DNA of 64,000 nt from contig CALXEQ010000001.1 in assembly GCA_944387375.1 (NCBI GenBank), positions 64,483 through 128,482 on the forward strand. Direction: 5' to 3'. A program made the translations under genes and the position numbers. Source of the DNA: an uncultured Clostridia bacterium. GTDB taxonomy: Bacteria; Bacillota; Clostridia; TANB77; CAG-465. Below, in pieces: positions 50,939 through 57,799 of the stretch (positions are counted from its first letter, which is position 1; every line of letters starts with the position of its first letter). The notes beneath the pieces were generated by a model. It was not told the origin of the DNA, did no database searches, and saw only the letters and a list, made by a program, of their open reading frames with translations.

Positions 50939-53773
50939 ATGAATGATAAATTAATTATAAAAGGTGCAAAAGAAAACAATTTAAAAAATATTGATTTGGA
51001 AATACCAAGAGATAATCTTGTTGTATTTACTGGACTTTCTGGATCAGGGAAGTCTTCTTTAGCGTTTGATACGATTTATGCAGAAGGTCAAAGAAGATAT
51101 GTTGAATCCTTATCTTCATATGCAAGACAGTTTTTAGGTATAATGGAAAAACCAAATGTTGAGTATATTGAAGGATTATCTCCTGCTATATCTATTGATC
51201 AAAAAACAACATCTAAAAATCCTCGTTCTACTGTTGGTACTGTAACAGAAATATATGATTATTTAAGACTACTTTATGCAAGAGTTGGTATACCTCATTG
51301 TCCAAAATGTGGAAAGAGAATAAAAAGACAAACTGTAGATGAGATGGTAGACCAAATACTTGAATATCCTGAAGGAACTAAAATACTAGTTATGACTCCT
51401 GTTATAAGAGGAAGAAAAGGAGAGCATGTAAAGTTACTTGAAAGAGTATTAAAGGATGGATTTATACGTGCAAGGATAGATGGAGAAACTTATGATTTGT
51501 CTGAGGAAATTCCACAACTAGATAAGCAAAAAAAACATAATATAGAAATAGTTGTTGATAGACTTGTTGTAAGAGATGATATTAGAAAAAGACTTGCAGA
51601 CTCTGTAGAGCTTGCTTTAAAATATGCTGAAAATTTAGTTATTATACATAGATTAGATGATGATACAGAGCAAGTATTTTCACAAAACTATGCGTGTGTA
51701 GATTGTGGAATTAGTTTAGAAGAGTTAACTCCAAGAATGTTTTCGTTTAATAGTCCATTTGGTGCATGTCCATATTGTACAGGACTTGGTGAAATATTAA
51801 GTATTGATCCAGAAAAAATTATGCCAAATAAAGAAAAACGTTTAAATGATTATGGTGCAATTCAAGGATGGACAGGATCTGGAAGTATTATAGATGGAAT
51901 AAGTAAAATGTACATAGAAGGACTATGTAAACACTATAAAGTAGATCCAAATACAAAGCTAAAAGATTTACCTAAAAAATTTATGGATGTACTACTTTAT
52001 GGAAGTAAAGGAGAAAAAATAAAATTTAAGCATAATACAAGAACAATGCAACGTGAGTTTGAAAATGAATTTGAGGGCGTAATAAATACACTTCAAAGAA
52101 GATTTAATGAGACAAAGTCTCAAGGAATGAAAACATTTTATGAAGGGTTTATGTCTAGTGCTCATTGTGATTATTGTGATGGTGCAAGGCTTAAAAAAGA
52201 AAGTTTGGCTGTAACAATTGGAAAACTTAATATTCATGAATTATGTTGTAAAAATATTGTGTATATAAAAGATTATATAAATAAAGAATATGAAAAAATG
52301 GGCAAGAAAGATAAAACAATTGCAGAGCAAATTGTAAAAGAGCTAAATTCAAGATTACAATTTTTAATAGATGTTGGACTTAGCTATTTAACTCTTTCAA
52401 GAAGTGCTGGAACTTTATCTGGAGGAGAATCACAAAGAATAAGACTTGCGACTCAAATAGGATCAGGACTTACAGGAGTATTATACATATTAGATGAGCC
52501 AAGTATTGGTTTGCATCAAAAAGATAACGAGAAACTTCTTAATTCATTAAAGAAAATGAGAGATTTAGGAAATACATTAATCGTGGTAGAACATGATGAT
52601 GATACTATGAGACAGTCAGATTTTATTGTAGATATAGGACCTGGAGCGGGAGTTCATGGTGGAGAGGTTGTTTTTGCTGGAAAACCAGAAGATATTTTAA
52701 ATTGTGAAGAGTCAATTACAGGAAAATATCTAAGTGGAAAATTAAAAATTCCAGTTCCAAAAACAAGAAGAAAAACAAATGTAGGCTATCTAGAGATAAA
52801 GGGTGCTAAAGAGCATAACTTAAAAAATATTAATGTAAAAATACCAGTTGGTGTATTTAATTGTGTAACAGGGGTATCTGGATCTGGAAAATCTACACTT
52901 GTAAATGAAATATTATATAAGACTATGGCACGAGATATAAATAGAGCATTTGAAAGACCTGGTAAATATGACAAAATAAAAGGTTTAGAATTTTTTGATA
53001 AAGTAATAAATATAGATCAATCTCCAATTGGAAGAACACCACGTTCAAATCCTGCAACTTATACTGGAATGTTTGATGCTATAAGAGAGATTTTTGCAAA
53101 CACTAATGAAGCGAAACTTAGAGGATATGCTAAAGGAAGATTTAGTTTTAATATACCTGGTGGAAGATGTGAAGCATGCTCTGGAGATGGAATTATTAAA
53201 ATTGAAATGAATTTTTTACCAGATGTTTATGTTCCATGCGAAGTTTGTAAAGGAAAAAGATATTCAAGAGAAACATTAGAGGTAAAATACAAAGGAAAAA
53301 GTATAAGTGATGTCTTAGATATGACAGTAGAAGAAGGACTTGAATTTTTTAAAAATATTCCTACTATAAAAAATAAATTACAAACATTAATGGATGTAGG
53401 ACTTGGGTATATAAAGATAGGTCAGCCTTCTACAACGCTTTCTGGTGGTGAAGCACAAAGAATTAAACTTGCTACAGAGTTATCTAAAAGATCAACTGGT
53501 AAAACAATGTATATATTAGATGAACCAACAACAGGTCTTCATATGGCAGATGTTCATAAATTGATAAATATATTACAAAGACTTGTTGAAGGTGGAAATA
53601 CACTTGTTGTAATTGAGCATAACCTAGATGTAATAAAGAGTGCGGATAACATAATAGACTTAGGTCCTGAAGGTGGAGACGAAGGAGGACAAGTTATAGC
53701 AACAGGTACACCAGAAGAAGTAGCAAAGGTAAAAGAAAGCTATACAGGAGAATTTTTAAGAAAAATATTATAA
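50939..53773 (+). CDS. uvrA: excinuclease ABC subunit A
   Basis: 944 residues from ATG 50939 (AAAAAAGGTGAG upstream). Two ABC modules: first Walker A '[13 protein letters not shown]' (about 32), zinc finger 'CPKCGKRI', damage-binding insertion, second zinc site 'CVDCGISL ... CPYCTG', signature '[16 protein letters not shown]' and '[13 protein letters not shown]'; second Walker A '[11 protein letters not shown]' (about 644), third zinc finger 'CEACSGDG ... CEVCKG', '[15 protein letters not shown]' and '[10 protein letters not shown]'. Damage recognition in nucleotide excision repair. uvrB and uvrC are not in the window. Confidence 0.98.
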
Positions 53774-53777
53774 TAAT

Positions 53778-53812
53778 AAGGTGGAAGAAAATAATCTCTT
53801 CCACCTTTATGT
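53778..53812 (+). terminator. terminator of uvrA
   Basis: AAGGTGGAAGA pairs with TCTTCCACCTT; the following T run is short (TTTAT). Confidence 0.65.
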
Positions 53813-53824
53813 ATTTATGTGCAA

Positions 53825-53983
53825 TTAGCAACAACAGCAACAAAGAACTATAATTATTAATACGATCCAAATACAGCAGCAGTTTCCTCCTCCGAAGAAT
53901 CCATTACCACCGAATCCGCCGCATCCGCAGTTATTGCATCCACAACCACCACAGTTGCCACATCCGCATCTTTCATCCATCAT
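53825..53983 (-). CDS. 52-residue cysteine/glycine-rich small membrane protein
   Basis: Minus-strand ORF starting ATGATG at 53983 with GAGAGGTGAACAG upstream and ending TAA at 53825-53827. Fifteen of 52 residues are cysteine. Layout: MMDER, a cysteine lattice CGCGNCGGCGCNNCGC, a Gly/Phe turn region, CCC, one hydrophobic segment IWIVLIIIVL, and a terminal CCCCC. The even CxC/CxxC spacing suggests metal or cluster binding; the Cys-flanked membrane segment recalls small spore-coat-like or CYSTM-like proteins, but I know no exact family. The codon composition is locally GC-rich because of Gly and Cys codons. A second small membrane protein gene lies directly upstream on the same strand. Confidence 0.72.
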   Translation of the reverse strand: MMDERCGCGNCGGCGCNNCGCGGFGGNGFFGGGNCCCIWIVLIIIVLCCCCC

Positions 53984-54012
53984 TCTGTTCACCTCTCTTT
54001 ATATATAAACTT

Positions 54013-54144
54013 CTAACTACTCTCAAAGAAAGTATCGAAGTTTAATGGTGTAGATGAAGTTCTTTCGTTACATATAAAGTATAAAATAATGAGTATTAAG
54101 ACTAGGATTATTAGCCATATAATATTATCACTATCTATGCACAT
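54013..54144 (-). CDS. 43-residue small membrane protein
   Basis: Minus-strand ORF: ATG at 54144 with AAAGGAG nine bases upstream, stop TAG at 54013-54015. Starts MCIDSDN, has one strongly hydrophobic helix 'IIWLIILVLILIILYFIC' and a polar tail. Only 29 bases separate it from the cysteine-rich gene, so they are probably co-transcribed. No family recognised. Confidence 0.6.
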   Translation of the reverse strand: MCIDSDNIIWLIILVLILIILYFICNERTSSTPLNFDTFFESS

Positions 54145-54225
54145 ACATTTCAACTCCTTTGTTTTTAGTTGACTATCAACTACTATAATATATTCAAAAA
54201 AAAATAAATGGTTACAAAATAAATA

Positions 54226-54285: not shown

Positions 54286-55647
54286 TTGAATAAAAATGAT
54301 GAAATTGAATTAGAAATTTTAGATAATGGAATAAATTTTGAAGGAATTTCAAGAGTAGATAATAAGGTAGTATTTGTACCTGATGCTATAAAGGGAGAAA
54401 AAGTACTTACTAAAATAATAAAAGTAAATAAATCATTTTGTATAGGAAAAATTGAAAAAATACTTGAAGAAAGCTCTAAAAGACAAACTCCTTTTTGTAG
54501 TGTATATAAAAGATGTGGTGGATGTTCAGCTCAGCATATAAAATATAAAGCACAACTTGAAATAAAGTATGAAAATGTAAAAAATACTTTGGCAAAGCAA
54601 GATATAAAATATGAATCTTTAGACAAAGTTATAGGAATGGGAATACCATATAATTATAGAAATAAAGCACAATATCCTGTAAGAATCGGTAAAGATGGAA
54701 AAAATAAAATTGGATTTTATGCTAAAAGGAGCCACGAAGTAATAGAAAATGAAGAATGTTTAATTCAAAATCAAGATATTGATAGACTCTCTAAAGAAGT
54801 ATTTAAATTATTGCTTTTGAAAGGATTTGTAGGATATAATGAGCTAACTAATCAAGGAGATATACGTCATATTCTAATTAGAAGAGGATATCATACAAAC
54901 GAGACTATGATAGTTATTGTAGTAAATAAAAAAGAAATTTTTGAAGATGTAAGAATAGAGGAAATAGTTAAAATCTTAAAAGAAAGTAACGATAAAATCA
55001 AAAGCATAATATTAAATTTTAATCCATCTAAAACAAATGAAATATTAGGTGAAGAAGAAAAGCTTGTATATGGCGTAGAATACATTACAGATTATATAGG
55101 AGAATATAAGTATTATATAAGCTCAAAATCTTTTTTTCAAGTAAATACAGTACAAGCAGAAGTATTGTATAATAAATTAAAAGAGCTTTTAAATTTAAAA
55201 GGTGATGAGATTCTTTTTGATTTATATAGTGGAGTAGGTTCAATAGGAATATTTTTAAGCAGTAATGTAAAAAAAGTATACGGAATTGAAATAGAAGAGC
55301 AGGCTATTAAAATGGCAAATTTAAATTTAGAAACAAATAATGTAAAAAATGCGGAATATATAGCAGGAAGTGTAGATAAGAAAATAGTAGAATTCGAAAA
55401 AAGAAACATTCATCCAGATGTTATAGTAATTGATCCACCAAGAAAGGGATTAGATTTAGAAAGTATAGAATATATTATAAAATTTAGACCTAAAAAAATT
55501 GGTTATGTAAGTTGCTCACCTGCAACACTTGCACGTGATTTAAAGCTTTTAAGTACATATTATGATATAGGTAAAATAGTACCAGTAGATCTTTTTCCAA
55601 ATAGTGTGCATTGTGAAGTTGTAACAAATTTAGAGCTAAAAAAATAA
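54286..55647 (+). CDS. rlmD: 23S rRNA (uracil-C5)-methyltransferase, RlmD/TrmA family
   Basis: 453 residues starting with TTG (AAGGTGG seven bases upstream; no in-frame ATG fits). N-terminal TRAM-like domain, Fe-S cluster cysteines in 'PFCSVYKRCGGCSAQHIKY', SAM site 'DLYSGVGSIGIFL', 'VIDPPRKGLD' and the catalytic cysteine in 'YVSCSPATLARDL'. Members methylate U1939 and/or U747 of 23S rRNA or U54 of tRNA; which one cannot be told by eye, so the symbol is provisional. Confidence 0.88.
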   Translation: MNKNDEIELEILDNGINFEGISRVDNKVVFVPDAIKGEKVLTKIIKVNKSFCIGKIEKILEESSKRQTPFCSVYKRCGGCSAQHIKYKAQLEIKYENVKNTLAKQDIKYESLDKVIGMGIPYNYRNKAQYPVRIGKDGKNKIGFYAKRSHEVIENEECLIQNQDIDRLSKEVFKLLLLKGFVGYNELTNQGDIRHILIRRGYHTNETMIVIVVNKKEIFEDVRIEEIVKILKESNDKIKSIILNFNPSKTNEILGEEEKLVYGVEYITDYIGEYKYYISSKSFFQVNTVQAEVLYNKLKELLNLKGDEILFDLYSGVGSIGIFLSSNVKKVYGIEIEEQAIKMANLNLETNNVKNAEYIAGSVDKKIVEFEKRNIHPDVIVIDPPRKGLDLESIEYIIKFRPKKIGYVSCSPATLARDLKLLSTYYDIGKIVPVDLFPNSVHCEVVTNLELKK

Positions 55648-55864: not shown

Positions 55865-57799
55865 ATGAATATTTTAACATCAGTAAATAAGAAATATATA
55901 AGACAACTAAATGTATTATTAAATTCAATATCATATTCTAATAAAGAGGAAGAATTTAATATATATGTTTTAAATAAAAATTTAGATAAGGATGATCTTG
56001 AAAATATAACTGTAAATTTAGATTCAAAAAGATTCAATATAGTTGATATAAAAATACCAGATAGTGAAATTGATACGTTCCCAGTTATAGAAAAAAGATA
56101 TCCAATTGAAATCTACTTTAGATTATTTGCAAGTGATTATTTACCAAGTGATATAGATAGAATATTATATTTAGATTGTGATACAGTTGTAATTAATAGT
56201 TTAAGTGAATTATATAATATGAATTTTGAAGATAACTATTATATTGCAGCTACGCATATAAGTAAAGTATTACATAAATTTAATGAGATTAGACTAAACA
56301 TTCAAGAAGATGAGCCATATGTAAATACAGGAGTTCTTTTAATTAATTTAAAACAATTAAGAAAAATAAATGTAAAAGAAAAAATAATAAAATTTATAGA
56401 GAAAAATCAAAAAAGACTACTTTTACCAGATCAAGATATAATAGTATCTCTTTTTGGGAATAAGATAAAATTAATAGATGAATTAAAATATAACTTAAGT
56501 GAGATAGCTTGGTATAAATTCAATATTAATAATTCAAAAAACAAAATAACCTTAAAATGGATTATAAAAAATACAGTTATTATACATTATTGTGGTAGAA
56601 ATAAACCTTGGAATAGGGAATACATTGGTAGTTTAGATTGCTTTTATAATAAGATATTAAAACAAATTAAAAAGAATAAGCCAAAAAAAGTACTGATACT
56701 TTCATGTGGCACAGGCGGAGGACATAATTCGGCAGCAAAAGCAGTAAAACAAGCTTTAAATGCAAAAAATATACAAGCAGATTTTAAAGAATATTTAGAA
56801 ATAACTAGACCTAATTTAAAAGATACTGTAAATAATTTATATATAAATTCAACAAATAATGAAGGCAAAGTATTTAAGCATGTATATAATTTAGGAAAGT
56901 TGTATCAAAAGACGAAATTAAAATCTCCAATATATACGTTAAATAAGCTAAATGGAAATAAATTGTATTATTATATAGAAAATAATTTTTATGATTATGT
57001 TGTTACTACACATCTATTTGCAGCTCAAGCTTTAACTGCAATAAAAAAAGAGCATGATATTCATTTTATTGCTATTGCAACAGATTATGTGAGTATTCCT
57101 TTTTGGGAGGAAACTAATCCAGATTATTTCATAATTCCAAGTGAAAAACTAAAAGCAGATTTTATGAAAAAAGGAATAGAAGAAAAAAAGCTTATACCTT
57201 TAGGAATACCAGTGCAACTTGAGTGTAGTCAAGATTATAAAATAGAAGAAGTAAGAAAAGAACTAAATTTAAAAAATGATGAAAAATATATATTAATTTT
57301 AACAGGAAGTATGGGATTTGGGAATATAAAAGGATTAATCAAAGATTTAATTAGCGAGATAAAAGATGCTAATTTTATAATATCTTGTGGAAATAACAAT
57401 GAGTTATTAAACGAACTAAAAAATGAATATGAGGGAAATGATAAAATTATCTTATTACCATTTACAGATAAATTAAATCTTTATATAAAGGCTTCTAATA
57501 TTATTCTTACAAAACCTGGAGGTCTAACAACAACAGAAATTGCAACTATAGGTAAGCCTTTTATACATACAATGCCAATACCTGGATGCGAAAACTATAA
57601 TTCTAACTTTTTTCAAAATTTAAAAATGTCAATAAAAAGTGATACTAAAGAAGAAGTTATAAAAAATACAAAGAAATTATTAACTGATGAAAAATTACAA
57701 AAAGAGATGGTAATAAACCAAAGAAAATACATAAATAGAAATGCAAGCATGGATATTGCAGAGCTTATATGTAAAGAGTTGAAAGAAAAGGGAGAATAA
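55865..57799 (+). CDS. two-domain glycosyltransferase: GT8 fused to MGDG synthase/UgtP-type GT28
   Basis: 644 residues in one uninterrupted frame. Residues 1-260 are a GT8 transferase: 'YPIEIYFRLFASDYLP', DxD metal site 'LYLDCDTVVI' (104-106), 'PYVNTGVLLINL', 'LPDQDIIVSLFGNKI' and 'IIHYCGRNKPW'. Residues 273-644 are a processive diacylglycerol glucosyltransferase/MGDG-synthase-type enzyme: 'LILSCGTGGGHNSAAKAV', 'DYVVTTHLFAAQAL', 'IATDYVSIPFWEE' and sugar-nucleotide site 'LTKPGGLTTTEIATIGKPFI' (about 547). No membrane segment. I infer that one protein adds two sugars in membrane glycolipid or lipoteichoic acid anchor synthesis; the following acyltransferase gene, overlapping by one base, supports a lipid pathway. 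GGAAGG precedes the ATG. Confidence 0.85.
   Translation: MNILTSVNKKYIRQLNVLLNSISYSNKEEEFNIYVLNKNLDKDDLENITVNLDSKRFNIVDIKIPDSEIDTFPVIEKRYPIEIYFRLFASDYLPSDIDRILYLDCDTVVINSLSELYNMNFEDNYYIAATHISKVLHKFNEIRLNIQEDEPYVNTGVLLINLKQLRKINVKEKIIKFIEKNQKRLLLPDQDIIVSLFGNKIKLIDELKYNLSEIAWYKFNINNSKNKITLKWIIKNTVIIHYCGRNKPWNREYIGSLDCFYNKILKQIKKNKPKKVLILSCGTGGGHNSAAKAVKQALNAKNIQADFKEYLEITRPNLKDTVNNLYINSTNNEGKVFKHVYNLGKLYQKTKLKSPIYTLNKLNGNKLYYYIENNFYDYVVTTHLFAAQALTAIKKEHDIHFIAIATDYVSIPFWEETNPDYFIIPSEKLKADFMKKGIEEKKLIPLGIPVQLECSQDYKIEEVRKELNLKNDEKYILILTGSMGFGNIKGLIKDLISEIKDANFIISCGNNNELLNELKNEYEGNDKIILLPFTDKLNLYIKASNIILTKPGGLTTTEIATIGKPFIHTMPIPGCENYNSNFFQNLKMSIKSDTKEEVIKNTKKLLTDEKLQKEMVINQRKYINRNASMDIAELICKELKEKGE

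Follow-up and report, generated by a model that had tools for sequence, protein, structure and literature searches.

What do two mini-genes contribute to an uncultured Clostridia bacterium when one of them encodes a protein of 52 residues with 15 cysteines and the other a one-helix partner? The pair lies in tandem on the minus strand of the window, the stretch of 64,000 nucleotides analyzed here, and a preliminary description, made from the letters alone, had offered a metal-binding, Fe-S or spore/envelope structure. The reading that we favor, and consider probable, is that the products are made late in the mother cell and belong to the spore coat or exosporium, as proteins tethered to a membrane and cross-linked by disulfides; both their expression and their location are what we infer from the promoter, the relatives and the genomic context set out below.

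Two conserved mini-genes in one operon

Gene B (53825–53983, minus strand) encodes a Gly/Asn/Cys-rich protein, MMDERCGCGNCGGCGCNNCGCGGFGGNGFFGGGNCCCIWIVLIIIVLCCCCC, in which 15 of the 52 residues are cysteines (28.8%), five of them at the C-terminal end, and a short hydrophobic helix lies between cysteine runs. Gene A (54013–54144, minus strand) encodes the 43-residue one-helix partner (MCIDSDN...FFESS), whose C-terminal SSTPLNFDTFFE motif is conserved in the family. Each gene is preceded by a ribosome-binding stretch on the same strand that is kept in relatives: AAAGAGAGGTGAA at 53988–54000 for B, with the Shine-Dalgarno-like GAGAGGTGA, and AAAGGAG at 54154–54160 for A. Re-reading the sequence confirmed the preliminary description in its coordinates, its residue counts and its ribosome-binding stretches, and translation returned the 15 cysteines and five-cysteine terminus of B and the 43-residue partner as described. 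The single membrane helix that had also been assigned to B is likely but short, since its aliphatic core comprises just 10 residues (18 counting the flanking cysteines). The AlphaFold2 model of B contains a helix at residues 37–51, predicted with modest confidence (mean pLDDT 56.8), the remainder being of low confidence.

Among 143 related genomes searched with B, 77 contained a match. True orthologues, of the DERCG type, are present in 26 of the 28 genomes of the genus and in all eight genomes from the rest of the family; the two genus members without one are 77% (G020) and 88% (G022) complete, and the sole match in the latter is a relative of another type. The refuting condition named at the outset, a frame that is not conserved in relatives, is thus not borne out. 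Across nine orthologues B differs chiefly at third codon positions (147/113/590 at positions 1/2/3), and among the listed pairs that differ, dN is 0.03–0.14 against a dS of 0.43–1.99, with a pairwise dN/dS of about 0.03–0.14. For A, the corresponding counts over nine orthologues are 232/83/356. Of the 34 family loci with a gene B, 33 have A directly upstream of it. In one genome (G017, locus L021) A is reduced to a remnant in which a coding stretch for STPLN is visible, whereas the promoter and B have been retained, which suggests that B can act without A. A and B are real, conserved genes, and together they form a bicistronic operon; their coding character, conservation, joint arrangement and promoter motif are established. 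In a second family of the order, B is represented by MPENRGCGGFGFGGDCCWIIILIILICCCC-type proteins, and an A-like gene of the MGCCNNSEILWFIILFLLLFCC type is found upstream in 8 of 12 loci.

The operon is adjoined on one side by uvrA (plus strand, ending at 53773) and on the other by a gene at 54286–55647 (plus strand) that encodes a protein matching the tRNA uracil-5-methyltransferase family; no sporulation gene lies beside A–B. The convergent genes uvrA and B are separated at their ends by an inverted repeat, GGTGGAAGA...TCTTCCACC (53780–53805), read from the sequence by eye, which is likely a terminator shared by the two. The uvrA neighbor belongs to the genus of the window; at five loci of the second family (L038, L039, L043, L051 and L052) the cassette is apparently divergent from another gene, which we take from its start to resemble mutL. 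In a single open reading frame further along the window, on the plus strand (55865–57799), a domain of glycosyltransferase family 8 is joined to MGDG-synthase-like and glycosyltransferase family 28 sequence; the fused protein may take part in glycolipid synthesis.

A sigma-K-type promoter and the sporulation background

Alignment of the upstream regions revealed a single strongly conserved block ahead of A, composed of GTAAC(A/C), about 16 bases and AATATAGTATATTA. In the window it reads GTAAC-N16-AATATATTA, a sigma-K-type promoter at 54215–54186 (minus strand) that precedes the start codon of A by 41 bases; it is an addition to the preliminary description. The extended motif GT(A/C)AC-N15–17-(C/A)ATANNNTA, scored within at most 400 bases upstream of B, is present at 32 of 34 loci of the family and at 9 of 12 of the second family, while Markov-resampled controls carry it at about 0.2% and 0%, respectively, and none of the 57 open reading frames of at least 120 residues in the window is preceded by it. 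The −10 box often reads CATATTATA in the second family. Since in the window's own family it mostly starts with AATA and not with CATA, the loci fit a sigma-K promoter in a relaxed form, the strict AC-N16-CATANNNTA form, with CATA, being found at just 3 of the 34 and 4 of the 12 loci. Across the organism's own genome, the exact pattern is not enriched: it matches four times, and its reversed control six. By itself the pattern therefore cannot list a regulon, and its weight comes only from conservation between genomes.

The sigma-K promoters of C. difficile are reported to differ from those of sigma-E at the −35 element, “AC” versus “ATA,” with a −10 common to both, such as CATATAAT (PMC3789822). 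The gene yabG, reported to be under sigma-K control in B. subtilis and C. difficile (PMC10681294; PMC3789822), is described as the single gene of the sigma-K regulon in the genomic signature of sporulation, co-opted vegetative genes aside (PMC10681294), and its upstream regions were used as a positive control for the motif in this genus. AC-N15–17-CATANNNTA is found ahead of yabG at 15 of 18 genus loci, the own genome included, with a spacing of 16 bases in 12 of them and a control rate of 0.9%. By its promoter motif, the A–B operon is probably under sigma-K control and switched on late in the mother cell.

The genome itself contains sporulation genes. SpoIVA (751 bits) and YabG (324 bits) score over their cut-offs, and there are two sigma factor candidates, each below its own curated cut-off: a sigma-E-like protein (C8:6728), scoring 326 bits against the sigma-E model and 263 against that of sigma-K, and a sigma-K-like protein (C3:212295; 264 bits on the sigma-K model, precisely 263.6 against a cut-off of 298.65, and 218 on the sigma-E model). 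Five genomes of the same order (G042, G054, G066, G068 and G070) have no SpoIVA and give weak matches to the sigma-K model (best E-values from 6e-19 to 5e-21); no match to B was found in any of them.

The association extends across the class. Of 391 genomes sampled from the Clostridia, 116 match a profile of B at E ≤ 0.1, and SpoIVA is present in 104 of these 116 versus 177 of the 275 others (Fisher p = 1.4e-7, ignoring shared ancestry); at E = 0.01 the figures are 70 of 77 versus 211 of 314 (p = 1.5e-5, shared ancestry again being ignored). B is not detectable in 177 of the 281 SpoIVA-positive genomes. Conversely, 12 of the 116 genomes matched by the profile have no SpoIVA; two of the 12 are 61% complete and several others are 91–100% complete, and one, G010, is a member of the genus with strong matches to the sigma-K model. 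The mini-proteins found class-wide are mostly 32–60 residues long, contain up to 29% cysteine and a single helix, and are often paired: among 18 loci from the class search that were read, two of them from the order of the window, six carry two or more mini-genes in tandem, and five include an open reading frame with the strict AC-N15–17-CATANNNTA motif within 130 bases. Of the functions first proposed, the spore option is thus supported by the conserved sigma-K-type promoter, the sporulation genes of the genome and the class-wide association with SpoIVA, whereas nothing that was tested favors metal or Fe-S binding.

A peroxiredoxin paired with related mini-proteins

Three weak matches of the search with B are mini-protein relatives encoded directly downstream of a peroxiredoxin. 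The two intact peroxiredoxins that were tested match AhpC/TSA together with the 1-Cys C-terminal domain, and a search found the same peroxiredoxin in 27 of 36 genomes of the family. Four of the 27 loci had no usable frame; among the 23 that were scored, a small Cys-rich helix protein follows the enzyme in 22, the own genome included, counting mini-genes that start from 8 bases before to 26 bases after the end of the peroxiredoxin frame. AC-N15–17-CATANNNTA is found upstream of the peroxiredoxin at 13 of the 23. For comparison, none of the 56 open reading frames of at least 150 residues in the window has a Cys-rich follower, and one has the motif upstream. The copy of the organism itself, a 1-Cys peroxiredoxin outside the window (L136, G000:C12:16017-16631), is preceded by a sigma-K-like TCAC-N16-CATACCATA, and a Cys-rich one-helix mini-gene, MNNCCCNEQNNSSNCISNLFCNGNFILILLLLLLFFCFCCN, starts 3 bases downstream of it. 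The pairing of the two genes is established, and the enzyme may either oxidize the thiols of these mini-proteins or protect them.

A peroxiredoxin is already known from the spore surface of C. difficile, where CotE, a peroxiredoxin-chitinase, is reported to be made under sigma-K and to be located in the spore coat and exosporium. Unlike CotE, the enzyme paired with the mini-proteins is a stand-alone 1-Cys peroxiredoxin that lacks a chitinase, bears a CxDWYLCFN-like tail and is accompanied by a separate Cys-rich mini membrane protein. This extra tail, CxDWYLC(F/Y)N, which follows the peroxiredoxin domain, is conserved in many copies (L123–L149).

Proteins of the same kind and competing readings

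No convincing match to A, B or their relatives was found in Pfam, NCBIfam or the PDB sequences, the weak matches to Pfam and NCBIfam (FtsH_ext, ATP-synt_8, LptM and others) being to the hydrophobic helix. The preliminary description knew of no characterized family; this stands for the three collections, but the kind of protein is known, and the unnamed family probably belongs with the Cys-rich spore-surface proteins and the tiny membrane proteins of the sigma-K regulon. No title or abstract retrieved by a literature search describes the mini-protein family, supplements and most subscription papers being outside its scope. Neither A nor B nor the peroxiredoxin of locus L040 matched any model of anti-phage defense, and one class-wide relative, searched against plasmids, had no match there.

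By analogy of chemistry, the nearest known proteins are CdeC and CdeM, which are Cys-rich, have sigma-K promoters and build the exosporium of C. difficile (PMC6101409). Disulfide linkage has been proposed for these two and reported for CotY/CotZ (PMC6101409), and for Cys-rich spore proteins including CsxA of C. sporogenes and CotY/CotZ of B. subtilis a disulfide-linked assembly has been proposed or shown (PMC6101409; PMC7333573; PMC7677010). CdeC and CdeM share with B a high cysteine content, and CdeM contains Asn/Gly/Cys repeats such as NGNNGGNNNNC. However, CdeM and CdeC are 161 and 405 residues long with 8.7–9% cysteine and, as far as their published description goes, have no membrane helix, in contrast to the much shorter, one-helix and more Cys-rich mini-proteins; CdeM is also described as confined to C. 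difficile, whereas the mini-proteins, often paired, are spread across the Clostridia. No homology of A or B to Cys-rich coat or exosporium proteins was found in Pfam, NCBIfam or the PDB, and CdeC and CdeM were compared by description.

In style, the closest counterpart is YjcZ (PF09680), which resembles A and B as a tiny single-helix protein with a late mother-cell promoter, the helix of B being of modest confidence. In YjcZ a Gly-rich head precedes a single helix, and to our knowledge no runs of cysteine stand on the two sides of that helix. Its gene is reported in the sigma-K regulon of B. subtilis, and the protein is described as membrane-associated (PMC517825; PMC11796252). Membership of this family was rejected, as neither A nor B nor the class-wide relatives match PF09680, with the reservation that HMMER filters may suppress short biased sequences; none of the 28 genus genomes has a protein over the PF09680 cut-off, the B. 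subtilis control being positive. The eukaryotic CYSTM proteins, described as small, tail-anchored and Cys-rich membrane proteins (PMC10217909), are also reminiscent of B. The Pfam CYSTM models do not match A, B or their relatives, and the likeness is likely convergent.

A mechanism for the A–B operon can be proposed from these elements. Late in endospore formation, the mother cell would transcribe the operon from the sigma-K-type promoter. Each of the two small products would then use its helix to enter the membrane that surrounds the forespore, or hydrophobic assemblies on it, and both would assemble on the forespore surface, tethered to the membrane. There B would expose a dense lattice of thiols that would become cross-linked by disulfides in the spore coat or exosporium, A would serve as a co-expressed partner helix, and the sporulation peroxiredoxin made with the related mini-protein could drive or limit the oxidation of these thiols.

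Alternatively, B could be a membrane-anchored protein that binds metal, of metallothionein-like type or as an Fe-S or zinc scaffold, and provides vegetative cells or the spore with a metal store or buffer. Its CxC/CxxC spacing and 29% cysteine content are typical of thiolate metal sites, and the number of cysteines, though variable, is high in all orthologues. In an alignment of 23 B proteins the best-conserved part is the helix with its cysteine flanks, while the cysteine lattice of the head varies in length. Among close relatives, however, both the number and the spacing of cysteines in the N-terminal half vary freely, unlike a fixed metal site; the promoter of sigma-K type and the pairing of relatives with a peroxiredoxin point to thiol oxidation in spores; and no metal transporter or regulator adjoins A–B. 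The metal-binding function is therefore unlikely.

Tiny one-helix proteins with a promoter of late mother-cell type might also be small hydrophobic peptides that act on membranes late in sporulation, for instance in mother-cell lysis or as membrane modulators, and not part of a structural coat. We consider this distinctly improbable, because it leaves the 15 cysteines, the Gly/Asn/Cys-rich head and the peroxiredoxin pairing unexplained. That the short, Cys- and Gly-rich B gives rise to a modified, bacteriocin-like peptide with thiazole or thioether bridges is very improbable, as no modifying enzyme, protease or exporter directly adjoins the operon, which is flanked by UvrA and the uracil-5-methyltransferase-family protein, and as it is the hydrophobic helix with its cysteine flanks that is most conserved. 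Finally, chance open frames without function, to which the short length and the lack of database matches might point, are ruled out by the conserved frames, the operon, the ribosome-binding sites, the promoter and a dN/dS far below 1.

A role of A and B in the spore coat or exosporium would carry a wider implication. Spore-surface proteins are poorly conserved and mostly uncharacterized beyond model species, and genes of the A/B type are small enough to escape length cut-offs, yet they recur across the Clostridia in a family that is linked to SpoIVA and has its own promoter and, in the sister operon, an enzyme partner. A bolder and rather doubtful extension is that the paired Cys-lattice mini membrane proteins of the class and the sporulation peroxiredoxin constitute a curing system, in which traces of peroxide turn membrane-anchored thiols into a disulfide-welded spore envelope; if so, the encounter of an anaerobe with oxygen would itself harden its spore. 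If confirmed, the family would provide a handle on how uncultured gut spore-formers make oxygen-resistant spores.
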